NCBI GenBank assembly: GCA_003096535.1
Contig: QEKJ01000015.1
Span: 1-63,031, forward strand
Direction: 5' to 3'
From: Agathobaculum butyriciproducens
GTDB lineage: Bacteria > Bacillota > Clostridia > Oscillospirales > Butyricicoccaceae
Length of the DNA: 63,031 nt
In this document: in pieces, positions 4,962 through 20,598 of the stretch
Layout: every line of letters starts with the position of its first letter
How positions within the stretch are numbered: the first letter of the stretch is position 1
The notes under the pieces: model-generated
Database searches by the model: none
Seen by the model: only the letters and a program-made list of their open reading frames with translations
Told to the model about the DNA's origin: nothing
Translations under genes and position numbers: made by a program

Positions 4962-7058
4962 ATGACCCGCGACGGGCTTATCGAGGTCAACGAAACCAAA
5001 GAAACCGCCGAGCGTGTGAGCCGCCGGGAACGGGAAGCGGATTTTTCAAGACCGCAGGAGCAGCCGGAGCCGCAGGCCGCACAGGAAATAGCGGCGCAGA
5101 ACGCGGCAGAGCTACCCCCTGTTTCTCCCGACGCTTCCCCGCTTCCCCTTACGCCGGAGCTTCCCCACAGGCAGGACACCGCCACCGCCGAGCGCGTCAT
5201 AGAACGTATCGACGCAGCCCAGACCCGGAAAGCGAGTAAAAAGGCAGCGCACAAAGCACAGCGCGACGCTACGGTAAAAGAGAAATCTTCCCGCTTGCAG
5301 TTTACCGAGGAAGAACTATCTACCCCGGAGCTTGAAAAGTACATCAGAAAATCCAACGAAGCCGCCGACCGTCTGGACGCAGCAAAGGCAGCTATCCCCA
5401 AAGAAAAGAAACTTGTCAAGGAACGCACCTTTGACGAAGCCACAGGAAAGGCAAAGACCCGCTTACGCTTTACCGAACAGGAAAAGCCGATAAACGGCGG
5501 CAAAGCCCACAGTAACCCGCTATCCCGCCCCGCGCAGGAAGCGGGTATTTTCGTCCACAACAAGATACATTCCGTGGAAAAGGATAATTCCGGCGTGGAG
5601 GGAGCGCATAAATCCGAGGAATTAGCGGAGAAAGGCGCAAAGTACGGGACGCGGAAAATTCGGGAGGGCTACCGCAGCCACAAGCTGAAACCCTACCGGG
5701 CGGCGGCAAAGGCTGAAAAAGCAGCGGAGAAAGCAAACGTCAATTACCTGTACCACAAGACGCTGCATGAGAACCCGCAGCTTACAAGTAACCCCCTATC
5801 CCGTTTCATGCAGAAGCGGCAAATCAAGCGGCAGTATGTTAAGGCAGCAAAGACGGGCGGCACAGCTACCGCGAAGAAAGCCGCCGAGAATACCCGCAAG
5901 GCAGCGAAGAAAACCGCCGAGGAAACAAGGCAAGCGGCGGCGTTTGTGGCAAGGCACCCGGCGGGCGTTTGTATCGCCGTTGCCGCGCTGCTCTTATTCA
6001 TTATGGTATCGGCGGGGCTTTCTTCCTGCGGGGCTATGTTTTCTGGCATGATGAACGGCGTTCTTGGAACGTCCTACACGTCGGAGGATAGCGACCTTGT
6101 GGCGACGGAAAACAACTACGCCGCAAAGGAAACCGAGCTTCAGCAGCGGATTGACAATATCGAGCGCGACAATCCCGGCTATGATGAATACCGCTACGAC
6201 CTTGACAATATCGGGCATAACCCGCATGAACTGGCTTCTTACCTTACCGCCCTTTTACAGAGCTACACGCCCCAAAGCGCACAGGCAGAGCTAAACCGCG
6301 TCTTTGATAAGCAGTACACCTTGACACTGACGGAAGAAATCGAAGTGCGCTACCGCACCGAAACCCGCACCGACACATGGACGGACGAGGACGGGAACAG
6401 CCACAGCGATACCTATACTGTTGAAGTACCCTATAACTATTACATTCTCAATGTCAAGCTGACAAACAAACCGATTAACAGCTTTGTATCGGAGCTTTTG
6501 ACCGTAGAACAGCTTGAAATGTACCGGGTGTACTTAGAAACAAGCGGCAACAAGCCCTTGATTTTCGGCGGCGGTTCTCCCGACGTTTCCGCGTCCGAGG
6601 ATTTAAGCGGCGTACAGTTTGTAAACGGAACGCGCCCCGGCAATACCGCGATTGTAGACCTTGCAAAGCGGCAAGTCGGCAACGTGGGCGGGCAGCCCTA
6701 TTGGAGCTGGTACGGCTTTAATAGCCGCGTGGAGTGGTGCGCCTGCTTTGTGTCATGGTGCTACGGGCAAATGGGCTTATCCGAGCCACGTTTTGCCGCC
6801 TGTCAATCACAGGGTATTCCGTGGTTTACCTCACGCGGGCAATGGGGAGCGCGGGGCTATGAGAATATCGCCCCCGGCGACGCTATCTTTTTCGACTGGG
6901 ACTTAGACGGAAGCGCAGACCATGTAGGGCTTGTTATCGGCACAGACGGAAGCCGCGTTTATACCGTTGAGGGCAATTCCGGCGACGCCTGCAAAATCAA
7001 AAGCTATCCCTTAGACTATGCCTGTATCAAAGGGTACGGGCTGATGAACTGGAACTAA
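4962..7058 (+). CDS. CD1108 family mobile element protein with C-terminal CHAP peptidase
   Basis: This large cell-wall hydrolase is thought to open peptidoglycan for the transfer apparatus. It has a long charged, Ala/Lys-rich N-terminal half, one membrane segment at about residues 330-350 (AVAALLLFIMVSAGL) and an extracellular part. That part ends in a CHAP-like domain with a probable catalytic Cys in WCACFVSWC and His in DHVGLVIG. The frame is open from 4884, and a GGAGGTG at 4909-4915 sits 7 bases before an in-frame ATA at 4923, so translation may begin there; the first ATG after it is 4962. The ICE-B homologue carries NlpC/P60 instead of CHAP. Confidence 0.85.
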   Translation: MTRDGLIEVNETKETAERVSRREREADFSRPQEQPEPQAAQEIAAQNAAELPPVSPDASPLPLTPELPHRQDTATAERVIERIDAAQTRKASKKAAHKAQRDATVKEKSSRLQFTEEELSTPELEKYIRKSNEAADRLDAAKAAIPKEKKLVKERTFDEATGKAKTRLRFTEQEKPINGGKAHSNPLSRPAQEAGIFVHNKIHSVEKDNSGVEGAHKSEELAEKGAKYGTRKIREGYRSHKLKPYRAAAKAEKAAEKANVNYLYHKTLHENPQLTSNPLSRFMQKRQIKRQYVKAAKTGGTATAKKAAENTRKAAKKTAEETRQAAAFVARHPAGVCIAVAALLLFIMVSAGLSSCGAMFSGMMNGVLGTSYTSEDSDLVATENNYAAKETELQQRIDNIERDNPGYDEYRYDLDNIGHNPHELASYLTALLQSYTPQSAQAELNRVFDKQYTLTLTEEIEVRYRTETRTDTWTDEDGNSHSDTYTVEVPYNYYILNVKLTNKPINSFVSELLTVEQLEMYRVYLETSGNKPLIFGGGSPDVSASEDLSGVQFVNGTRPGNTAIVDLAKRQVGNVGGQPYWSWYGFNSRVEWCACFVSWCYGQMGLSEPRFAACQSQGIPWFTSRGQWGARGYENIAPGDAIFFDWDLDGSADHVGLVIGTDGSRVYTVEGNSGDACKIKSYPLDYACIKGYGLMNWN

Positions 7059-7086
7059 CCGCAAAAATGAAAGGAGTATTGACATT

Positions 7087-7356
7087 ATGGCAATGAGTAA
7101 GATTGAACGTATCGACCGGGAAATCCAGAAAACCCGCGAGAAAATCACAGAGTATCAGAACAAGCTGAAAGGACTGGAAGCGCAGAAAACCGAAGCGGAA
7201 AACCTTGAAATCGTACAGCTTGTGCGCTCCATGCGCTTAACCCCCGCAGAGCTTAACGCTATGTTATCCGGCGGCGGTATTCCCGGCATGGCTGCCGCCG
7301 TTCCCGAAGAAACCGCAGACTATGACGAAGAACAGGAGGACACCGAGAATGAATAA
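7087..7356 (+). CDS. DUF4315 family protein
   Basis: An 89-residue soluble protein with a predicted N-terminal coiled coil ([20 protein letters not shown]) and an acidic tail. Its ATG is preceded by AAAGGAG. It lies between CD1108 and CD1107 exactly as in ICE-B (56548-56796), the conserved neighbourhood of DUF4315 proteins. Molecular function is unknown; a role in transfer complex assembly is inferred from position only. Confidence 0.8.
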
Positions 7357-8077
7357 GAAAATCCTTAGAACGCTGACCGCATTTTGCGCCGCCCTTATGC
7401 TCATGGGCGGCTTTTCCGTTACCGCTTTTGCACAAACGCCGGAGCAGCCCGCCGCTGACGCGACCAACGACAGCGGCGTTATCTATGAGGAACCCGAAGA
7501 AACCGCACCCCTTACGCCGGAGGGGAACGCGACCCTTGTTGACGATTTCGGCGGCAATAAGCAGCTTATCACTGTTACTACCAAAGCCGGGAACTATTTT
7601 TATATCCTCATTGACCGGGACGACGAGGGCGAAAACACCGTACATTTCTTAAATCAAGTAGACGACGCAGACCTTTTCGCGCTCTTGGAGGACGGGGAAA
7701 GCACCGAGGCGCAGACACCCGCTGTCTGCACCTGTACGGAGAAATGCGAAACCGGGAAAATCAATACGTCCTGCCCGGTATGCTCTACGAACATGACCGC
7801 TTGCAGCGGCAAAGAAGCCGAGCCGGAGCCGGAGGAAGTAACCGAGCAGCCGCAGGAAAAAAGCAATACGGGCGGGCTTGTGCTTTTCCTTGTCGTGGCA
7901 CTTCTTGGCGGCGGGGGCGCGTTCTATTACTTTAAGTTTGTGAAGAACAAGCCGAGTGTGAAAGGCGGCACCGACCTTGACGACTTTGATTTTGAGGACT
8001 ACGACGAGGACGAGCCGGAGCCGGACGACGCAGACGGGGACGTTTCCGAAGATGAAACGGAGGACGAGGACGCATGA
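7349..8077 (+). CDS. CD1107 family mobile element protein (DUF4366)
   Basis: A 242-residue exported membrane protein. A signal peptide (hydrophobic [15 protein letters not shown] ending near AFA) opens the protein, followed by a domain with [19 protein letters not shown] Cys cluster (CTCTEKC, CPVC) comes next, then one membrane helix near residues 180-200 and a very acidic cytoplasmic tail. It starts at ATG 7349, overlapping the end of DUF4315 by eight bases. The ICE-B homologue has an added SH3-like domain. The exact role in conjugation is unknown. Confidence 0.82.
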
Positions 8078-8277
8078 CCCTGTTTACCGACAATCCCTTT
8101 GAAAAGATGATGATACAACGACCATGCGGGCGGCGCGACAATGCGCCGCCTGTTTTCAAATCCCCGGCCTGCGCTTCCTGCCCCTATAAAGAGCAGACCC
8201 CTTGTGTGGGCTACTGTCTGAAACAGGTACAGGAGAAACAGGGCGCACAGCCGGAACGCGGAAAGGAGGAACTTTAG
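8074..8277 (+). CDS. Small cysteine-rich protein upstream of topB
   Basis: A 67-residue protein overlaps the end of CD1107 by ATGA. It contains [12 protein letters not shown] and a Cys-rich stretch ([16 protein letters not shown]) that could bind a metal. The same kind of protein with NNPLERLMMQKP sits at the same place in ICE-B (55396-55584), so it is a real conserved gene. Function is unknown. Confidence 0.65.
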
Positions 8278-10365
8278 TTGATTTTAGTTATCGCTGAAAA
8301 GCCGAGCGTGGCGCAGACTATCGCCGCCGCGCTTGGGGCAAAGAAGAAACAGGACGGATATATCGAGGGCGACAAATATCTTATTTCGTGGTGCGTCGGG
8401 CATTTGGTACAGCTTGCCGACGCTGCCGCCTATGGGGAGCAGTACAAAAAATGGAGCTATGACAGCTTACCGATTTTGCCGCAGGAATGGCAGTATACCG
8501 TTTCCGCAGATAAGGGAAAGCAATTTGCGACCTTAAAAAACCTCATGCACCGCACCGACATTTCCGAAGTCGTCAACGCCTGCGACGCGGGGCGCGAGGG
8601 AGAACTCATTTTCCGTTTTGTCTATGAAGTCGCCGGGTGCAAGAAGCCTATGCGCCGCTTGTGGATTTCCTCAATGGAAGAAAGCGCAATCAAGGCGGGC
8701 TTTGAGAACTTAAAGGACGGGCGGGACTATGACGCGCTCTTTGCGTCTGCCCTCTGCCGCGCAAAGGCTGACTGGATTATCGGCATTAACGCCACCCGCC
8801 TTTTCTCCTGCCTGTATAACCGCACCTTGAACGTGGGGCGCGTCCAGACACCGACCTTAAAAATGCTTGTAGACCGGGACGCTGCTATCAGCACTTTCAA
8901 GAAAGAAAAATACTACCATGTGCGGCTTAATTTATCCGGCGCAGAAGCCGCAAGCGGGAAGATCTGCGCCGCAGAGGAAGCAAAGGAACTGAAAGCAGCC
9001 TGCGAAGCGTCGCGGGCTGTCTGCACTTCCCTTGTGAGGGAAAAGAAAACCGCAGCCCCGCCGAAGCTCTTTGACCTTACCTCTTTGCAGCGGGAAGCAA
9101 ACCGTATTTTCGGGTATACCGCGAAACAGACCCTTGACCTGGCGCAAGCCCTGTATGAAAAGAAGCTGCTTACTTATCCGAGGACGGACAGCAGCTATCT
9201 GACCGACGACATGGAGGAAACGGCGGCAAAGGTTATCGCTCTGTTATGCGGAAAGCTACCCTTTATGGCGGGTGTGGGATTTTCGCCGGAGATTGCAAGG
9301 GTGCTGAACAGCAAAAAGGTATCAGACCACCATGCAATCATTCCCACTATGGAGCTTGCAAAGACTGACCTTGCCGCGTTGCCGGAAAGCGAAAAGAATA
9401 TCCTTACCCTTGCGGGGGCGCGTCTTTTGTTCGCTACTGCCGCGCCGCACAGTTTTGAAACGGTTACGGCGGTTTTCTCCTGCGCCGGAGCCGACTTTAC
9501 CGCGAGGGGAAAGACGGTGCTTGCGGGCGGTTGGAAAGACCTTGAACGCCGCTACCGGGCAACGCTGAAAGATAAGCCCGAAGCAGACGACGAGGACAGC
9601 GCAGACGGAACGCTGCCGGAGCTTACCGAGGGACAGAGCTTTTCTAATCCCGCAGCAAAGGTAACGGAACACGACACAACGCCCCCGAAGCCCCACAATG
9701 AAGCGTCTTTGCTTTCGGCTATGGAACGCGCCGGAAATGAGGACACCGACCCGGACGCAGAACGGAAAGGGCTTGGAACGCCCGCCACCCGCGCCGCTGT
9801 CATTGAAAAGTTAGTGAGCAGCGGTTTTGTGGAGCGCAAGGGAAAGCAGCTTACCCCCACAAAAGACGGGAATAACCTTGTGTGCATTTTGCCGGACAAT
9901 CTCACTTCCCCGAAGCTGACCGCAGAATGGGAAAACAATCTGACGCAGATAGCAAAGGGAGCAGCCGACCCCGACGAATTTTTATCCGGCATTGAAGCTA
10001 TGGCGCGGGAGCTTGTGAAATCCTATCCGTTCCTTTCCGACAGCGACAAGGAGCGTTTCAAAACGGAAAAGCCGGAAATCGGCAAATGCCCCCGCTGCGG
10101 TTCCCCCGTCCATGAGGGCAAGAAAAACTATTACTGCTCTGACCGGGACTGCGCTTTTGTCATGTGGAAGAATGACCGCTTTTTTGAGGACAGGAAAGTA
10201 ACCTTTTCCCCGAAGATTGCCGCCGCACTTCTGAAATCCGGCAAAGTGAAAGTCAAAGGGCTGTACTCTCCCAAAACAGGCAAAACCTACGACGGAACGG
10301 TTGTTTTAGCCGATACGGGCGGGAAGTACGTCAACTATAAGATTGAGCTACCGAAGAAGAAATAA
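8278..10365 (+). CDS. topB: DNA topoisomerase III (type IA)
   Basis: This 695-residue topoisomerase relaxes or decatenates DNA during element transfer. It opens with the Toprim motif VIAEKPSVAQ and shows DAGREGELIF near residue 105. The active-site tyrosine is in TYPRTDS at about residue 300, and a C-terminal zinc ribbon (CPRCGSPVHEGKKNYYC) ends the protein. Start codon is TTG 8278 directly after the stop of the small Cys-rich gene, with GGAGGA upstream. The length and motif set fit plasmid/ICE TopB enzymes rather than the longer chromosomal TopA. Confidence 0.95.
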   Translation: MILVIAEKPSVAQTIAAALGAKKKQDGYIEGDKYLISWCVGHLVQLADAAAYGEQYKKWSYDSLPILPQEWQYTVSADKGKQFATLKNLMHRTDISEVVNACDAGREGELIFRFVYEVAGCKKPMRRLWISSMEESAIKAGFENLKDGRDYDALFASALCRAKADWIIGINATRLFSCLYNRTLNVGRVQTPTLKMLVDRDAAISTFKKEKYYHVRLNLSGAEAASGKICAAEEAKELKAACEASRAVCTSLVREKKTAAPPKLFDLTSLQREANRIFGYTAKQTLDLAQALYEKKLLTYPRTDSSYLTDDMEETAAKVIALLCGKLPFMAGVGFSPEIARVLNSKKVSDHHAIIPTMELAKTDLAALPESEKNILTLAGARLLFATAAPHSFETVTAVFSCAGADFTARGKTVLAGGWKDLERRYRATLKDKPEADDEDSADGTLPELTEGQSFSNPAAKVTEHDTTPPKPHNEASLLSAMERAGNEDTDPDAERKGLGTPATRAAVIEKLVSSGFVERKGKQLTPTKDGNNLVCILPDNLTSPKLTAEWENNLTQIAKGAADPDEFLSGIEAMARELVKSYPFLSDSDKERFKTEKPEIGKCPRCGSPVHEGKKNYYCSDRDCAFVMWKNDRFFEDRKVTFSPKIAAALLKSGKVKVKGLYSPKTGKTYDGTVVLADTGGKYVNYKIELPKKK

Positions 10366-10370
10366 CTTGA

Positions 10371-10472
10371 ATAGCAAGCATAGGAAGCGGGTACCCACTT
10401 CCGTAAATCCTCCGTTTTCGTCTGACGACGATTGCGGGGGATTTTTCTTGTTGGGAAGTTTCCCAAACCCTC
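10371..10472 (+). other. oriT-like module, copy 1 of ICE-A
   Basis: This lies in the 210-base gap after topB. It consists of a near-palindrome GGAAGCGGGTACCCACTTCC at 10383-10402, a hairpin with arms at 10405-10414 and 10435-10444, then CTTGTTGGG with the inverted repeat TTGGGAA/TTCCCAA at 10451-10466. The same order in inverted orientation occurs before mobC (15360-15460), and a third diverged version is at 27633-27724. An origin of transfer is inferred from the structure and the mobC-linked copy; no nick site is proven. Confidence 0.55.
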
Positions 10473-10576
10473 TACATTTTTTCAAAATCTTTGGCAGAAC
10501 AGGCGGTGCGTTGTATTTAGGAGTGTAACCACCAACGCGCAGCGTTTACGCTGCCATTTCAGAAAGGAGCGAATAC

Positions 10577-11713
10577 ATGAGCGAACAATTTTCCATTCTT
10601 ATCGACAGCCGCACCCGCTTTGAAACAAGCGAACCGGGCGGCGTGTGGCTTTCCATGCCGACCACAAAGGAGCAGCTTCACGAAGCTATGCAGCGTGTCG
10701 GTATTACTGCGGATAACCCGCAGGACTTTCTTATCAACGGTTTTATGAACACCGAGCAGCAGCCCTTTGACGTGCCGCTTCCCGTTATCCAGAGCGCGGG
10801 GCTTGACGAACTGAACTACTTAGGCAATCTGCTTTCCATGCAGCGCGACGAGGACAGGAACAAGTTTACGGCGGCGGTAACTCTTGGGGAACGCGCCGGA
10901 AATATCAAAGACCTTATCAACCTTGCACAAAACCTTGACTGTTACTGGCTTTATCCCACCGTACAGAACGAGGAAGATTACGGCTATTACCTTATCGACG
11001 AACTGGACGAATTAGAACTGCCCGAAGAAGCAAAAAAGTATTTCATGTATGAGGATTACGGGCGGGACGCTGCTATCAATGACGGAGGACGCTTTACCGA
11101 ACAGGGCTATATCTACAACAACAAGAACACCTTTACGGAGTGGTACAACGGCAAGGAAAGCGACATACCGAGGGAATATAAGGTTATGAGCTTCCCGCAG
11201 CCGGAACGCCCCGACCCGTCAAAGGTAGAAATGGACGCAGCCGCGCCGGGACAGAAAACAGCACAGACCGCAGAGCAGCCGCAGGAGCCGCGCCCGGTTA
11301 TCCCTATCGTGCTGACGAGCGAGAAGCCCGCAGAGAAATTGAAAGAGATTACCGACCGTCTGGAACAGGGCATAACGGAACTGTTTGAAAGCGAGCGTTA
11401 CCGGGAATATCTGCGCGTCATGTCAAAATTCCATAATTACAGCTTTAACAATACGCTGCTTATCGCCATGCAGAAGCCGGACGCTTCCCTTGTGGCGGGC
11501 TTTTCCGCATGGAAAAACAATTTTGGACGAAACGTGATGAAAGGGCAAAAGGGAATTAAAATCATTGCCCCGTCGCCTTACAAAGTCAAACAAGAAATGA
11601 AGAAAATCGACCCCCACACGCAGCAGCCGATTATTGGGAAAGACGGAAAGCCGGTTACGGAGGAAAAGGAAATCACGATACCCGCCTACGCGGCCGCGAG
11701 CTTTCCGAACTGA
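10577..11713 (+). pseudogene. Antirestriction ArdA fused to ArdC N-terminus, truncated by internal deletion
   Basis: Residues 1-200 or so form an acidic ArdA-type antirestriction domain (DYGRDAAINDGGRFTEQGYI), a DNA mimic that blocks type I restriction enzymes. From about residue 260 it continues into an ArdC/LtrC-like DNA-binding segment (YSFNNTLLIAMQKPDASLVAGF). After EITIPAY the frame changes and ends at 11713. ICE-B has about 165 more residues here, including the HEIAH metallopeptidase, before sequence homologous to bases 11698 onward resumes. The ArdA part is intact and could still function. Confidence 0.75.
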
Positions 11714-13698: not shown

Positions 13699-15048
13699 TT
13701 ATCCGCGCTCTGCTTCCTTGCCCCGTTCCGGCTGCTTTCCTGTCTGCAAAATGCTATCTATGTTCTGTTTGATAACGTCATATTCCCGGACTTTCTTCTT
13801 CAGTTTGCCATAATCGGCGTAAAGGACTTCTTTCTGCGCTTGGAGTGCTTCATATTCTTTTTGCAGCGCGGCGGGATTGGGGAGCTTTGTAATGCCCGCC
13901 GCTTTGAGTGCCTTTGCCGCAGCTTCATGGAGGATAATATCGCGCTCATGTCCGGCGCGGTATCGCTCTTTGCTCTTTGCCTTGCGGTATGCGTCATAGA
14001 CAGGCTTTGTCTTTTGGTAGGTGGCGACGTGCTTCATCAGCACCGCCATATCCGCAAGCCGCTTTTCAACGCTCTTTAATGCGTCGGCGGTCTGTTCGCT
14101 TTCCGCTGTTACTTCCTCAATCCGGCTGACTAAATCCGCGTACTGTTCAATTTTATTTTCCGTCAAGAAATTCATGGTCTTAGCCGCCTGTTTCAGATTG
14201 TGGATTTTCGCCCAGTGTTCATAGCCTTTGCTCTGCGCCGCCTTGATACTGTTTTCAATGTCAATCAGCAGGCTAACGCTGCCGCGATCTGCGCGGGGAG
14301 CTTTCGCAGCGCGGGCGCGTTTGCCCTCTATGCGTTCCCTTATGGCTTCCTCTGTATAGTCTGCGCCGAGGGTTTTAAGACGGGTAAAGCGTTCCTGTCC
14401 GGGAGCGCGGCAGGACACATATTTTCCCGGCTTTATCTCATAGCCCGCAGCTTGCAGCCGTTGTAACAATTCCTCAAAACTGGACACTTGGGGAATGAGT
14501 GCGTCAACGGCGATTTTCAGCTTGCCTTTCCAACTGGTTCCCGTTTTTTCTGCTTGATACTCTGCATAGCTCTTTCCCTTGTTTCCCTTTTTCGGGATAA
14601 CGACGGATAAGCCGTTTTCCCGGCATAGCCTGTCGCTCATGTTCCGTATGCCGTAATAGCTGCGCTTATTGGAATTGTATTTGTGGTGGTCCACAAAATT
14701 GACCGCGCAGAAAATAATGTGATTATGGACGTGCCCTTTGTCAATATGCGTCGTCAATACATACTCATGCTGCCCTTTTGTTACCGCGTCGGCAAGCTGC
14801 TTTCCGATTTTATGGGCGGTTTCGTAATCCACTTCCCCCGGCTCAAAGGACTGTATCAGATGAAAGGCTAAATTGTTCCCCTTTTGGAGAGCTTGCGACA
14901 AGGTATATTCAAACTCAATGTCTGCCGTTTCATAACTGCACCCAAAGGAGGACACAAGCATTTTTCCGTCCGTCTTATCGGGATTTTGGATATAGTCAAG
15001 GGCTTTGTTCAACGTGCTTTTAATAGACTTAATCTTTGTAACCGCCAT
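13699..15048 (-). CDS. Relaxase/mobilization nuclease (MOBP-like) of ICE-A
   Basis: This 449-residue protein nicks oriT and pilots the DNA strand. The N-terminal relaxase domain shows NLAFHLIQSF and the metal-binding triple-histidine motif HIDKGHVHNHIIF near residues 100-112; a probable catalytic Tyr lies early (DYIQNPDKT). The C-terminal half is helical and charged. The start overlaps the 3' end of mobC by 40 bases. The gene is transcribed against the neighbouring transfer genes. It is distinct from, but homologous to, the ICE-B relaxase (35543-36967). Confidence 0.92.
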   Translation of the reverse strand: MAVTKIKSIKSTLNKALDYIQNPDKTDGKMLVSSFGCSYETADIEFEYTLSQALQKGNNLAFHLIQSFEPGEVDYETAHKIGKQLADAVTKGQHEYVLTTHIDKGHVHNHIIFCAVNFVDHHKYNSNKRSYYGIRNMSDRLCRENGLSVVIPKKGNKGKSYAEYQAEKTGTSWKGKLKIAVDALIPQVSSFEELLQRLQAAGYEIKPGKYVSCRAPGQERFTRLKTLGADYTEEAIRERIEGKRARAAKAPRADRGSVSLLIDIENSIKAAQSKGYEHWAKIHNLKQAAKTMNFLTENKIEQYADLVSRIEEVTAESEQTADALKSVEKRLADMAVLMKHVATYQKTKPVYDAYRKAKSKERYRAGHERDIILHEAAAKALKAAGITKLPNPAALQKEYEALQAQKEVLYADYGKLKKKVREYDVIKQNIDSILQTGKQPERGKEAERG

Positions 15049-15338
15049 ATCTCATTAAGCACCCCCTTAATTTCCTCTATGTCCTCTTGATAAACGCTGC
15101 CCGTACTGTTCACGCGCTTTGCAATCTGGTTGACGTTGACACCGATTTTCTGTATCTCCGCTGTCATAGCTTTTATGTCGGTGTGGTCTACTTGGATAAT
15201 GTACCCGTCGATTGCCATTTTCCGCAAATAGGCTTCCATGTTCCGGGTAGGGACGAGCTTCATTTTTTCAAGAATTAAATCCCGTTCCGCTTCTGTTACT
15301 CTAAACTTGATTTGTACCGTTCTTTTTCGTCCGTCCAT
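15009..15338 (-). CDS. mobC: MobC-like relaxosome accessory protein
   Basis: A 109-residue protein beginning DGRKRTVQIKFRVTEAERD with a predicted ribbon-helix-helix fold and the family signature NMEAYLRKMAIDGYI. MobC binds oriT and helps the relaxase. The frame is open up to 15395, but ATG 15338 follows GGAAAGGAGCGAAAGC, giving the expected size. The oriT-like module copy 2 begins 22 bases upstream. ICE-B has its own MobC at 39907-40245. Confidence 0.88.
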   Translation of the reverse strand: MDGRKRTVQIKFRVTEAERDLILEKMKLVPTRNMEAYLRKMAIDGYIIQVDHTDIKAMTAEIQKIGVNVNQIAKRVNSTGSVYQEDIEEIKGVLNEIWRLQRLSLLKAR

Positions 15339-15359
15339 GCTTTCGCTCCTTTCCATTCC

Positions 15360-15460
15360 GAGGGTTTGGGACACTTCCCAACAAGCCATTTTCAACCGAC
15401 GCGCCGCAGCGCAGGAGGGCGAAAATACGGAAGTGGGTACCCGCTTCCTATGCTTGCTAT
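15360..15460 (-). other. oriT-like module, copy 2 of ICE-A, next to mobC
   Basis: Read on the - strand it repeats the order of copy 1. It has a near-palindrome at 15429-15448, a hairpin whose outer arms are ATTTTC (15388-15393) and GAAAAT (15421-15426), and CTTGTTGGG with the inverted repeat at 15365-15380. About 34 bases around GGGTACCC and about 25 around CTTGTTGGG match copy 1, while the hairpin sequence between them is unrelated. Its place directly upstream of mobC is the usual position of oriT. The rest of 15461-15591 shows no gene. Confidence 0.65.
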
Positions 15461-15591: not shown

Positions 15592-15945
15592 CTATTCGCC
15601 CTCTTTTTCGACTTCGGAAATCTCCTTTGCCGTTGCGGTTACAATCCGTATGCCTGTATCGCTCATACCGTCAAGAAGCGCGTCAAGCTGCCGCCGCTGC
15701 GTGTTCTTCTCCGGCGGCGTTTCTAAAAGGAATTGGTCTACGGATATATGGTAACGCTGTATCAGCTCAAAGAATATCTGTAAACTTGGGTGCTGCCCCT
15801 TGTTCTCAATGTTCGCAAGGTAGCGCGGCGAGATAAACATTTCGTCGCCTACTTTCTTGCGGCTCTCCTTGCATCCCTCACGCGCTGCCTTTATCGCTGC
15901 CCCAAAAGCCTTAAAGTCGTATCGTGGTACTGGTCTTTTTGCCAT
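15592..15945 (-). CDS. XRE-family transcriptional regulator
   Basis: A 117-residue protein whose residues 10-70 form a Cro/C1-type helix-turn-helix (GAAIKAAREGCKESRKKVGDEMFISPRYLANIEN), followed by an acidic tail. It lies between the mobilisation genes and the cargo, divergent from the cargo promoter at 16042. It probably regulates mobilisation or element genes; the target is unknown. Confidence 0.82.
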   Translation of the reverse strand: MAKRPVPRYDFKAFGAAIKAAREGCKESRKKVGDEMFISPRYLANIENKGQHPSLQIFFELIQRYHISVDQFLLETPPEKNTQRRQLDALLDGMSDTGIRIVTATAKEISEVEKEGE

Positions 15946-16041: not shown

Positions 16042-16069
16042 TTGACAACAAGCTGCTTTTGTATATAAT
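16042..16069 (+). promoter_or_regulatory. Strong sigma-A promoter of the cargo operon
   Basis: TTGACA at 16042-16047 and TATAAT at 16064-16069 are both perfect consensus hexamers, separated by 16 bases in a very AT-rich stretch. Transcription would start near 16076 and run through the leader peptide and attenuator into the KTR and Cfr-like genes. Confidence 0.8.
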
Positions 16070-16094
16070 ATTATATAAAAGGGGGGGAATGTTT

Positions 16095-16121
16095 ATGTTA
16101 CATAGCATGCGTATTCGATAA
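16095..16121 (+). CDS. Leader peptide of the cargo operon (8 codons)
   Basis: An ATG at 16095 opens the peptide MLHSMRIR, ending in TAA 16119-16121, behind a run of seven G at 16081-16087. Very short leaders of this kind precede ribosomal-protection tet genes and other ribosome-targeted resistance genes, where stalling controls downstream termination. The ATAGCAT bases inside the leader can pair with ATGCTAT at 16188-16194 downstream, giving a possible alternative structure. Translation and function are inferred. Confidence 0.6.
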   Translation: MLHSMRIR

Positions 16122-16145
16122 GCATTGAAATCAAAAAAGATTTTT

Positions 16146-16169
16146 CCCATTTTCAATATGGGCTTTTTT
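16146..16169 (+). terminator. Leader hairpin with T-run (attenuator 1)
   Basis: CCCAT (16146-16150) and ATGGG (16158-16162) flank a short loop and are followed by C and six T. It lies 25 bases after the leader peptide stop, and its formation could depend on ribosome position. It is a short stem, so weak alone. Confidence 0.5.
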
Positions 16170-16267
16170 GTCATGCTTATTTTGCGTATGCTATACAACA
16201 AAACTAACGACGTATAGACATAGTATAAAAACTATGCCTTAATTTTGTTGTAGTATTATATGTATAA

Positions 16268-16310
16268 ATGCAGGTCAATGCTCATGTTGAGAATTGACCT
16301 GCATTTTTTT
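16268..16310 (+). terminator. Strong attenuator terminator just before the KTR gene
   Basis: A perfect 12-base stem is formed by ATGCAGGTCAAT (16268-16279) and ATTGACCTGCAT (16293-16304), with T at 16304-16310. It stands only 20 bases before the KTR start codon, so it must be read through for the cargo to be expressed. Between the two terminators are ACAACAAAA and TTTTGTTGT arms and a CATAGT/ACTATG hairpin that could form competing folds. Confidence 0.8.
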
Positions 16311-16329
16311 GCGCAAAAGGAGAAATATT

Positions 16330-16509
16330 ATGCTTGAAAAATATTGGATAAAATGTCCAATTTGTAACGGAAAGACGAGGGTTCAAGTATTTTATAATAC
16401 GGTATTAAGAAATTTTCCTCTTTTCTGCCCTAAATGTAAATTAACGCATATCGTTGATGTTGAAAAACTAGAAATCATAATCAAAAACTCTGAAAAACAA
16501 ACTTTTTAA
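16330..16509 (+). CDS. Cysteine-rich KTR domain protein
   Basis: A 59-residue protein begins MLEKYWIKCPICNGKTR and has a second CPKC pair, making a four-cysteine zinc-ribbon; the KTR tripeptide follows the first pair. Such proteins are known as companions of tetracycline resistance genes in ICE cargo. The frame is open from 16294, but ATG 16330 has AAAGGAG just upstream. The gene is AT-rich, unlike its neighbours, and is followed after 23 bases by the Cfr-like gene, presumably in one transcript. Function is unknown. Confidence 0.8.
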   Translation: MLEKYWIKCPICNGKTRVQVFYNTVLRNFPLFCPKCKLTHIVDVEKLEIIIKNSEKQTF

Positions 16510-16532
16510 TTTTGAAAAGGAAGGATATTTAA

Positions 16533-17522
16533 ATGAAACACTTACCTAAAAGTACACCTACGGAAATATTGAATGACCCATACGGATTTACTTACAAAGA
16601 AATGTCGGAAGTAATTGGAGAGGATAAAGCAAGAGCCTTATATACGGAATTGTATAAACAGCCATTTCACAAAGAAAATCTATCAATATCAACAAAAAAA
16701 GTCTATAAAAGTAGCGATACTGAAAAGTATGTTTATGAATTGAAAGATAACAGGTATATTGAAACGGTTTTTATTAAACGGCGAGATGGTGGGACTGTTT
16801 GCGTAAGTACGCAAGTTGGTTGTTCTGTTGGCTGTATTTTTTGCGAGTCCGGACGCAATGGTTTTGTTCGTAATCTAACACCGTCTGAAATTGTGCAGCA
16901 GGTTGTATTGATACGTCAAAAAGTAAATCGTATCGTTTTTATGGGAATGGGAGAACCTTTATTCAATTACGACAACTTGATTGCAGCAATCCATATTCTT
17001 CGAGATAGAAATGGACTTAACTTTCCAACCGACGGCATTACCGTATCAACAGTTGGTCCAGTTAATCAATTAAAAAAATTGCGCGAAGAACATCTAAAAA
17101 TTCAGTTGACAATATCTTTACATGCAGCAACACAGGCTGCGAGAAACTGTATCATTCCTCATATGCACATGTACGCTATTGAAGATGTTGTTAAGCAAGC
17201 ATTGTCCTATTCTCAAAGGCATAATCGAAAAGTGGTATTTGCGTATTTGCTTTTACCAGGTATAAATGACCGTTCCTCAGATATAAGGCAACTTGCAAAA
17301 TGGTTTAAGGGCAAAAATGTTATGATTAACGTGCTGCAATACAACCCGACGAGTAATTCAAAAATTAGAGCACCACAAAAACAAGAAATGGTTGCGTTCA
17401 AACATCAATTAGAGCAAACAGGACTTGAAGTTACCATGAGAGTTTCTCATGGTAGAGAGATTAAAGCAGCTTGTGGACAGTTAGCTAATACATATAATAA
17501 AGCCAAAAAACAACAGAAATAA
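16533..17522 (+). CDS. Cfr/RlmN-family radical SAM 23S rRNA methyltransferase
   Basis: A 329-residue radical SAM enzyme. The iron-sulfur cluster ligands are C97, C101 and C104 (GCSVGCIFC); C90 matches the catalytic cysteine seven residues before them in RlmN. The SAM-binding GMGEP is at 138-142, and C314 in AACGQL corresponds to the methyl-carrying cysteine. All catalytic cysteines of the family are present. RlmN makes C2-methyl-A2503 in 23S rRNA and Cfr makes C8-methyl-A2503, which confers resistance to several ribosome-targeting drugs. This protein departs clearly from both in my recall, so which carbon it methylates is open. Its attenuated, AT-rich cargo setting favours a resistance role over housekeeping. 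Confidence 0.82.
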   Translation: MKHLPKSTPTEILNDPYGFTYKEMSEVIGEDKARALYTELYKQPFHKENLSISTKKVYKSSDTEKYVYELKDNRYIETVFIKRRDGGTVCVSTQVGCSVGCIFCESGRNGFVRNLTPSEIVQQVVLIRQKVNRIVFMGMGEPLFNYDNLIAAIHILRDRNGLNFPTDGITVSTVGPVNQLKKLREEHLKIQLTISLHAATQAARNCIIPHMHMYAIEDVVKQALSYSQRHNRKVVFAYLLLPGINDRSSDIRQLAKWFKGKNVMINVLQYNPTSNSKIRAPQKQEMVAFKHQLEQTGLEVTMRVSHGREIKAACGQLANTYNKAKKQQK

Positions 17523-17552
17523 TTTAATTAAAAGAGCCAGACGCACAGACGC

Positions 17553-17601
17553 AGAGCCGATAATATGCAGTTTGAAATACTGCTGTTATCGGCTCTTTTT
17601 T
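17553..17601 (+). terminator. Terminator of the cargo operon
   Basis: AGAGCCGATAA (17553-17563) and TTATCGGCTCT (17586-17596) form a perfect 11-base stem with further pairing inside, followed by T at 17596-17601. It lies 30 bases after the Cfr-like gene. The following stretch to 17749 shows no gene. Confidence 0.88.
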
Positions 17602-18058: not shown

Positions 18059-18499
18059 ATGGAACCTAATCGCGTGGAATTTCAGAAGCAATGTATCTTT
18101 CAAAGTTTCTGTAAACGGGTGCTGCACAACGAAGCCTGCAACGCCCACGAGGAAATCCGGCGTCGCAGAGCAAAGGAAGTGTCGTTTTCCGACCTTGCCT
18201 TGCATGAGGAACGACAGCTTTATACGCTTGATAAGTATTTTCAAGACGAAGAAGCCGAGCCGAGCTATCAGCAGGCAGGAAAGAAAATCACGCCGAAGCT
18301 GCTGCTTGAAGCAATCCGCACTTTGCCGGAAGAAAAAAGGAAAGCTATCATGCTGTACTATTTCGAGGGCATGACCGACGTGGAGATTGGAAAGTTATTC
18401 AATACGTCGCGCAGCACGATACAGTACAGACGGACAAGCTCTTTTGAAATCTTGAAGAAATATTTGGAGGAACACGCTGATGAATGGGACGAATGGTAA
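18059..18499 (+). CDS. Sigma-70-like regulator (Tn916 Orf7-type)
   Basis: A 146-residue protein with a C-terminal sigma region 4-like helix-turn-helix (LPEEKRKAIMLYYFEGMTDVEIGKLFNTSRSTIQYR). It starts at ATG 18059 behind AAAGGAGGTGAG; the upstream open frame lacks support. It is followed by the Orf8-like gene with a 20-base overlap, the same pair that precedes xis and int in Tn916/Tn1549 elements. It is likely a regulator of excision or transfer genes. Confidence 0.85.
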   Translation: MEPNRVEFQKQCIFQSFCKRVLHNEACNAHEEIRRRRAKEVSFSDLALHEERQLYTLDKYFQDEEAEPSYQQAGKKITPKLLLEAIRTLPEEKRKAIMLYYFEGMTDVEIGKLFNTSRSTIQYRRTSSFEILKKYLEEHADEWDEW

Positions 18500-19404: not shown

Positions 19405-20598
19405 ATGGCTATATCAACAAGGCAGGTTAAGAATAAACGCGACAGCAACGGCGTACTGACCGGGCGGCCGGGTACAGTTTACGACGTGAATATAAAGTAC
19501 ACCGCCCCGAATGGGGAAAAGAAAACCTATTCAAAAAAGGGCTTTCCAACAAAAAAGGAAGCAACGCAGCATGAAGCAGAGATGAAAGCAAAGCTCCATA
19601 ATCCGGGACAGATTGCGTCTATCGCTTCACAGCGGAAACAGACCGTTGCAAGCTATCTGAATGAATGGGTAGAAAGCTATGCAAGAGTGAACTTGCGCCC
19701 CTCTACTTACGACGGGTACAAAAGAACGATTGCAAACTACATCACGCCATATATCGGCGGCGTTGCCCTTAATCAGCTTACCCCCGCTATGGTAGACAAA
19801 ATGTTTCAGCAGATTATTGGCAAAGGCTTGAAACCGTCCACCGCAGCCGGGGCAAAGCGTGTTTTGAGCGTGGCGTTGAGCCATGCCCGGAAATACCGCT
19901 ATATCGAAACAAACGCAGCAAAGGACACGCTTACGAAGTTTGGAAAGAGCGACAAGACCCCCGACCCGTACACGCCGGAACAGGTAAAAGCCCTTATGCA
20001 GCGCGTCGAGGGTACCGTTTGGGAAATGCCCGTTATCTTAGGCGGGCTTTACGGTATGCGCCGTTCTGAAATCCTGGGCTTGCGTTGGCGCAATGTGGAT
20101 TTGGAAAACAACACCTTTGACGTTTCCGAGCAGCTACCCTTTAAGGTACCGCCAAAAACAAAAGTCATTGAGGAAATGGCACCGCCGAAATCCAACGGGC
20201 GAAAGCTGCCTATCACAGAGCTTGCCCGCCCGTTCTTTCTCAAACAGTTTGCTATGCAGGAAGCGCAGCGCGAACAGGCAGAAAAGGACGGAAAGCCTTA
20301 CTATGACAATGACCTTGTTGTAGCGAAGCCGGACGGTTCCCCTATCTCCGCGTCGTGGGTATCTTCCCAGTTTGGAAAGCTGCTTGAAGATTTGGATATG
20401 CCGCATATCCGCTTTCACGATTTGCGCCACCCGTATGTCAAGCACATGACAAAAATTTTTAGCTTGCGCTTGATGGATTCTCAAGCGCAGGCTTATCCTG
20501 ATGCTCGGCGAAAAACTCGCGGAGCTTGTCAGCTTCATCGGGGAGGACAAAACCGAAGCTCTGTCCGCCCACTCTGCAATAGAAAGCGATTTTCATGA
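19405..20598 (+). pseudogene. int: Tyrosine integrase, disrupted after the HDLRH box
   Basis: Residues 1-60 form an AP2-like arm-binding domain. A SAM-like core-binding domain follows at about 70-165, and then the catalytic domain with the first Arg in GLYGMRRSEILGLRW and HDLRH ending at base 20430. The family then expects a segment with LGH and the catalytic Tyr about 50-60 residues on; instead the frame reads PYVKHMTKIFSLRL and basic low-similarity sequence to a stop at 20598. Both final catalytic residues are missing, so the enzyme should be inactive. Bases beyond 20430 belong to ICE-B. Confidence 0.8.
20459..20597 (-). CDS. Small ORF downstream of the serine recombinases
   Basis: A 45-codon frame begins MKIAFYCRVGGQ behind GAGGTGG, 10 bases after the stop of the last recombinase. 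The product contains DEADKLREFFAEH and is not recognised. A hairpin (20466-20473 with 20481-20488) overlaps its 3' end and may end transcription of the recombinase operon. On the other strand the same bases form the aberrant tail of the integrase. Confidence 0.45.

Follow-up and report, generated by a model that had tools for sequence, protein, structure and literature searches.

A putative macrolide attenuator and an MrmA-type radical SAM methylase in a mobile element of Agathobaculum butyriciproducens

Results

Organization of the module

We analysed a 63,031-nucleotide stretch of Agathobaculum butyriciproducens DNA (GenBank assembly GCA_003096535.1, contig QEKJ01000015.1, positions 1 to 63,031; hereafter the window), in which positions 16042-17601 hold a small module within an integrative and conjugative element (ICE). 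The module consists of a promoter, a leader RNA encoding a short peptide, a cysteine-rich KTR gene and a gene for a radical S-adenosylmethionine (SAM) methylase of the type of MrmA, all on the plus strand. An initial annotation made from the sequence alone had listed these parts, and each of them was recovered. The sigma-70 type promoter (TTGACA-N16-TATAAT, 16042-16069) agrees with the consensus at 12 of 12 positions. Weaker promoter-like sites are uninformative, because 11 were found in 2901 bases against 7.3 expected. The open reading frame (ORF) of the 8-codon leader peptide MLHSMRIR* (16095-16121) lies behind GGGGGGG, and its positions 16102-16113 are predicted to pair with 16183-16194 in a long hairpin (16102-16194). 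This hairpin encloses T1, a weak terminator-like hairpin with a U run (16146-16169; core 16146-16162, 5 bp, -5.2 kcal). The strong intrinsic terminator T2 (16268-16310) stands just 5′ of the KTR gene; its perfect stem of 12 bp (16268-16279/16293-16304) is accompanied by an inner stem of 4 bp and by 7 T. The KTR gene (16330-16509) encodes a 59-amino-acid product (CPIC...CPKC) that matches PF14205 with an E value of 5.4e-21. The methylase gene follows at 16533-17522 (329 amino acids; named from profiles, tree, alignment and fold match), and an intrinsic terminator at 17553-17596 closes the module. T1 was listed by a simple pattern scan and by folding; the scan listed neither T2 nor the closing terminator, for both of which folding is the evidence. 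The G+C content is 0.34 in the module and 0.539 over the remainder of the window, in agreement with the annotated AT-rich block in GC-richer ICE DNA.

The leader peptide and its RNA

The leader folds far more stably than its composition predicts (-78 kcal for 256 nt, against -49.3 ± 4.35 in 200 shuffles; z = -6.6). Among 3000 dinucleotide shuffles of 16070-16329, an ORF of 5-12 codons ending in [RK]x[RK]* and preceded by a Shine-Dalgarno sequence arose in 0.2%, and one ending in MR[IL]R* never arose. The window encodes a leader peptide with a "+x+" arrest motif (here RIR) behind a ribosome-binding site, as mef/msr-type attenuators do. MLHSMRIR belongs to the macrolide-arrest class that includes MefAL (MTASMRLR), Msr(A)L, ErmDL and ErmKL (PMC4335068, Table 3), whose members carry the "+x+" macrolide-arrest motif (PMC10314930). 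The architecture is shared with the attenuators of mef(A)/msr(D) and erm(D)/erm(K): an 8-codon leader ending in MRxR* within a long hairpin, a second stem, and a terminal hairpin with a U run before the first gene. The window differs in having MLHSMRIR instead of MTASMRLR and in placing a KTR gene and a methylase gene, not a pump and an ABC-F protein, downstream.

The RNA itself is homologous to a known family. Positions 16100-16311 match the Rfam covariance model RF02862 (sRNA_1300) at 50.1 bits (gathering score 48.8; E = 1.3e-9), and four close copies tested also score above gathering (50.1 or 49.5 bits); a match to RF01263 (snR191; 19.3 of 46 bits) was rejected as chance. RF02862 was described as "Enterococcus sRNA 1300" from an E. 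faecium genomic island of 60 kb (PMC5593968); the main text of that paper never uses the word "macrolide". Its consensus, however, encodes a peptide ending in TASMRLR* and holds two 12-base repeats four bases apart; a like pair of 12-base repeats has been described in the mef(E) leader (PMC4335068). A search with the consensus matched 18 plasmid records. In all four of those opened (L167-L170, RNA at 2501-2731), a mef(A) or msr-type gene begins about 40-60 bases 3′ of the RNA. RF02862 has the look of a leader transcript terminated at a macrolide attenuator, and not of a stand-alone small RNA (sRNA).

The leader is conserved with the methylase. A survey of genome contigs gave at least 80 loci whose methylase is at least 85% identical to that of the window, and all counts on the 80 loci listed refer to these. 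MLHSMRIR lies 5′ of the methylase in 73 of them; 77 had room for a leader, and the other three are cut by a contig end. Leader, T2 and KTR gene are jointly present in 68. The natural copies L054, L055, L036, L070 and L100 lack part of the leader region, T2 or the KTR gene and keep a full-length methylase match. In a sample of the order comprising 394 genomes, the methylase was matched in 10 (threshold E ≤ 1e-90), one of which is the source genome of the window. All strong leader matches in this sample, found in seven genomes, adjoin the methylase; seven further genomes gave short weak matches only, and no MRxR* leader was found in them. No description of the leader was found in the open literature, most subscription journals lying outside the search; of the papers that contain SMRIR, the 10 listed of 11 are unrelated by title and none has MLHSMRIR or HSMRIR.

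The methylase is neither Cfr nor housekeeping RlmN

The five cysteines named in the initial annotation (C90, C97, C101, C104 and C314) are all present, together with C206. By the roles known from RlmN and Cfr, we take C97, C101 and C104 to be the radical SAM triad and C90 and C314 to be the catalytic cysteines. The best curated model is that of RlmN (TIGR00048), at 270.3 bits under a cut-off of 290. The Cfr models are missed widely: 197.5 of 530 bits for CfrAB, 191.1 of 550 for TIGR04432 and 194.4 of 468 for a third Cfr model. The predicted fold (mean predicted local distance difference test score 73.9) is matched best in the PDB by RlmN structures (6fz6, 5hr7 and 3rfa), with Cfr (9p0p) eleventh. 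In the window methylase 76 residues precede E77, against 92-105 in three RlmN proteins measured.

A tree of 42 proteins, which included 31 RlmN and Cfr A, B and C but neither Cfr(D) nor Cfr(E), was built after removal of L135 (like L134) and L138 (an over-long frame); its bootstrap was not fully settled. The window methylase groups with an 85% identical relative with support 100/99, these two with three relatives of 61-63% identity (100/99), and all five with a protein from a Rhodobacter plasmid (L010; 100/99). Cfr A, B and C form a branch of their own (100/100), and all 31 RlmN lie elsewhere. Cfr and the clade of the window join against RlmN at 92/83 on a branch of 0.02, a grouping on which we do not rely. 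Two proteins from the phylum (L108 and L109; TIGR04432 307 and 290 bits, cut-off 550) could not serve as Cfr references, because they fell on the RlmN side. A 76% identical copy with one internal stop codon (L110, G426:C52:31567-32547) never entered the tree.

At ten alignment positions all five members of the clade share a residue other than the one kept in at least 27 of the 31 RlmN; among them, Ala237 replaces a Glu of 31/31 RlmN and Gln269 a Pro of 30/31. Two of the ten, K233 (Arg in 30/31 RlmN) and A237, are the same in all three Cfr, and at a third, position 193, the residue is shared with some Cfr. Identity to Cfr A, B and C is 29.5-32.2%. RlmN is expected as a single chromosomal housekeeping gene; the genome holds a separate RlmN (C1:94877-95698), 35% identical to the window methylase, and the latter was matched in only 10 of the 394 genomes of the order. 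Like Cfr, the window methylase has the RlmN/Cfr fold, the catalytic cysteines and a mobile setting, but it lies in a separate clade under the Cfr cut-offs; with RlmN it shares the fold and the best profile, but not the clade, the cut-off or the length of the N-terminus. By profile, tree and residues it is neither Cfr nor housekeeping RlmN.

Relation to MrmA

An enzyme of this kind has already been described; of the papers listed for MrmA (20 of 144), PMC11983580 alone is on topic. MrmA (WP_002584956.1) is encoded by Tn6105 within Tn6110/Tn7806 of C. difficile (PMC11983580). In a delta-tolC strain of E. coli, mrmA raised the minimum inhibitory concentration (MIC) of erythromycin 512-fold, with a small rise for streptogramin B and quinupristin/dalfopristin. 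The MICs of tylosin, clindamycin, pristinamycin IIA, tiamulin, chloramphenicol and linezolid did not rise, and the authors of that study suggest methylation of a different adenine (PMC11983580). We compared the annealing parts of the primers used for cloning mrmA with 108 sequences: the window and 107 loci, among which some contigs are represented by more than one copy. Both primers match exactly and with equal spacing in 48 sequences, all of the group that is 85-86% identical to the window. In five further loci of this group the forward primer is exact and the reverse has mismatches (four in four loci, six in L087), and the window has 4 and 6 mismatches to the two primers. Since all exact matches to both primers fall in the 85% group, MrmA very probably belongs to it, a comparison made at the gene ends alone with the inner sequence of WP_002584956.1 outside it.

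Between the window methylase and the primer-matching group, amino acid identity is 85.3% and the ratio of nonsynonymous to synonymous substitution rates (dN/dS) is 0.16. Macrolide resistance genes are usually assigned to one class above 80% identity, a limit that 85.3% exceeds. The two groups are also alike in length, cysteines and mobile setting, and the same leader peptide, T2 and KTR gene are found in 36 of the 43 listed copies of the 85-86% group. The leader codons of the two groups differ by two synonymous changes only (TTA/TTG and CGA/AGA). Unlike MrmA, the window protein is 97-100% identical to the proteins of the other 37 listed copies; on amino acid identity, its gene belongs to a second allele group beside that of MrmA. 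The main text of the MrmA paper contains no mention of a leader peptide, attenuator, KTR or cysteine-rich protein (PMC11983580), and the passages on these elements in two other papers do not name the methylase. The initial annotation had called the module possibly undescribed. This does not hold for the kind of enzyme, which is known; it holds only for the 85%-identical allele group and, as far as the searches went, for the leader.

The KTR gene, the mobile element and the spread of the module

The KTR protein had been proposed as a partner of the methylase, a proposal that its distribution speaks against. No KTR gene was found in 7 of the 80 loci listed (two of the seven at a contig end) or in 5 of the 77 with enough upstream sequence, and it is partial in two more. 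Nor was one found beside the relatives of 61-63% identity (L009, L006 and L020). An obligate partnership was rejected on these grounds, and the KTR gene looks like a passenger, because it was not found in these three relatives, two of which lie near Mef-like pumps. Both the KTR gene and a helix-turn-helix (HTH) gene are present in 64 of the 66 loci having 3.5 kb on either side. Positions 17531-17600 of the window, which hold the closing terminator, are 81-83% identical over about 70 bases to DNA under cysteine-rich KTR features of many Enterococcus, Staphylococcus and enterobacterial plasmids.

The module is surrounded by genes of the ICE. On its 5′ side, all on the minus strand, lie an HTH regulator recognised by sequence (15592-15945), a MobC-like protein (15009-15395) and a relaxase-like protein (13699-15048); the last is below its family cut-off, and both names are found in the annotation of a 98.8% relative. 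On its 3′ side, on the plus strand, follow a sigma-like regulator (18059-18499; named from sequence and from the same annotation) and a tyrosine-type integrase (19405-20598) that was named by eye, with no family match at E ≤ 1e-8. A VirB4-like CD1110-family ATPase, a CD1108-family protein and a topoisomerase III near the module are all above their family cut-offs. We take the cargo sites of Tn916/Tn1549-type ICEs as the comparison: there too, an HTH gene and a sigma-like gene flank the cargo, and genes for relaxase and MobC adjoin it. Unlike in those sites, the integration genes of the module-bearing elements vary among copies. One cargo site rides on elements with differing integration genes, because the window integrase was matched in only 4 of the 80 loci listed, at 22-25% identity.

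The 80 loci listed come from 72 Bacillota, 4 Actinomycetota, one Kiritimatiellota and one Thermodesulfobacteriota, with two unassigned. The Kiritimatiellota and Thermodesulfobacteriota records are metagenome-assembled genomes that may be misbinned. One copy of the methylase was seen in Agathobaculum massiliense (L035).

Distant relatives of the methylase

On a Paraclostridium plasmid (L009, 63% identity), the methylase follows genes for a pump resembling Mef(A) (351 bits, against a cut-off of 675) and for HflX, and tetB(P) lies further on. Here a different leader, MIINFMRIR*, which also ends in MRIR*, lies 110 nt upstream of the methylase. In L146 (genome G085, 63%), the methylase is flanked by a Mef(A)-like pump, which at 542 bits is also under the cut-off, and by an RlmA/TlrB-like 23S guanine-N1 methylase, which scores 157 bits against PRK11088 (cut-off 303). 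These three genes (7208-10769, minus strand) make a possible macrolide resistance cluster. Within the stretch 5802-9380, MurA-like and PHP-like proteins follow the methylase past the RlmA-like gene, and c-di-GMP-I riboswitch and pemK RNA motifs score above gathering at 15014-15089 and 17482-17539. In L006 (63%; 5980-9808), the genes after the methylase encode a HisJ-like PHP protein, a fragment that by eye resembles a carbamoyltransferase, and an asparagine synthase-like protein; no resistance gene was recognised beside the methylase. The neighbourhoods of L006 and L146 could each be a small biosynthetic cluster with self-resistance. The Rhodobacter xanthinilyticus plasmid protein (L010, 4767-5837; 40-47% identical) lies between TetR and LysR genes, followed by floR and tet(G), and is possibly a further class.

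Discussion

We consider it likely that the module as a whole is a macrolide-inducible transcription attenuator driving an MrmA-type methylase on an ICE. In the absence of drug, the transcript from the promoter at 16042 would end mostly at T2, and also at T1, within the leader. When a macrolide is bound, the ribosome would stall on M-L-H-S-M-R-I-R and break the hairpin that contains the leader codons. RNA polymerase could then read on into the KTR and methylase genes. The methylase, with its RlmN/Cfr fold, [4Fe-4S] triad and both catalytic cysteines, would methylate an adenine of 23S rRNA, probably not A2503, and in the allele of the window, as with MrmA, this may lower the action of erythromycin and streptogramin B.

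Several observations weigh against this interpretation. In static folding, a ribosome-sized footprint placed over the leader abolishes the long hairpin, but T2 remains paired (probability 0.91-0.92, against 0.93 free). T1 pairing stays at 0.95-0.99, apart from a drop to 0.34 when the longest footprint covers the full leader. Static folding thus revealed no antiterminator for T2, nor was a distal inverted repeat found that would unpair it. The latter sets the window apart from the mef/msr-type attenuators; for mef(E), antitermination via distal repeats has been proposed (PMC4335068). The RF02862 scores (50.1 and 49.5 bits) barely exceed the gathering score, and the RF02862 scan gave no match in L009, L006 or L146. 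Despite available upstream sequence, the leader peptide is lacking in L028, L058, L062 and L087 of the 80 loci listed, as it is in the close copies L003, L005, L013 and L019 from other collections, and three of the ten methylase-bearing genomes of the order sample show no strong leader match. Of the four distant relatives whose upstream regions were scanned, L006, L146 and L010 have no "+x+" leader, and L010 adjoins floR and tet(G) with no macrolide genes. Finally, the mrmA primer match covers the two ends of the gene and not the inner sequence of WP_002584956.1.

Such observations could fit an MrmA-type methylase whose leader is constitutive or senses something other than a macrolide, the KTR gene and the leader being generic ICE parts. 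The persistence of T2 in static folding, the eight close copies devoid of a leader and the KTR-annotated genes on many plasmids without the methylase speak for this reading. Yet the peptide and the RNA both match macrolide attenuators, and every strong leader match in the order sample adjoins the methylase while the seven weak ones lack MRxR*. A different leader ending in MRIR* on L009 points the same way, and we regard a generic leader as unlikely.

It is still less likely that the gene encodes an additional, mobile RlmN, forming m2A2503 (and m2A37 in tRNA) as housekeeping RlmN does and having no role in resistance. The best family model and the best PDB matches are those of RlmN, and the record of the 98.8% relative annotates the gene as such. 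Nevertheless, the protein misses the RlmN cut-off, lies outside the 31 RlmN of the tree, has lost their Glu and Pro, and occurs in a genome that already has an RlmN; a drug-type leader would also be unexpected for RlmN. A Cfr-type multi-drug methylase acting on A2503-C8 is very improbable: the fold, the cysteines, the residues A237 and K233 and the short branch shared with Cfr speak for it, but the protein is far under the Cfr cut-offs, lies outside the clade of Cfr A, B and C at 29.5-32.2% identity to them, and its 85% relative MrmA leaves the MICs of linezolid, chloramphenicol, clindamycin, tiamulin and pristinamycin IIA unchanged (PMC11983580). The initial annotation had proposed an inducible Cfr-like resistance module and suggested a phylogeny with Cfr and RlmN references, in which the methylase nests neither in RlmN nor with Cfr A, B and C. 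What survives of the proposal is a mobile, probably drug-inducible resistance module whose methylase lies outside the RlmN clade; multi-drug resistance of the Cfr kind is not supported.

The macrolide-inducible attenuator with an MrmA-type methylase, which we prefer, would have several consequences. In the annotated records that we opened, the gene goes by the name of RlmN and is left unmarked by the resistance predictions that accompany them. For this reason, a probable mobile resistance gene appears to have gone unnoticed in at least 80 genome-contig loci. The leader indicates which drugs should switch the gene on, and RF02862, which Rfam lists as an Enterococcus sRNA, seems in fact to represent a macrolide attenuator. 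There is an even chance, in our judgment, that the MrmA group represents a third specificity of the RlmN/Cfr fold, namely drug-inducible radical SAM enzymes that C-methylate an exit-tunnel adenine other than A2503. It would then comprise several classes (the window allele group, MrmA, the three relatives of 61-63% identity and perhaps the Rhodobacter protein of 40-47%) and would be a macrolide resistance gene common in gut Clostridia and filed under RlmN by the curated models searched. The base that the enzyme methylates would be an rRNA site at which modification by this fold is new.

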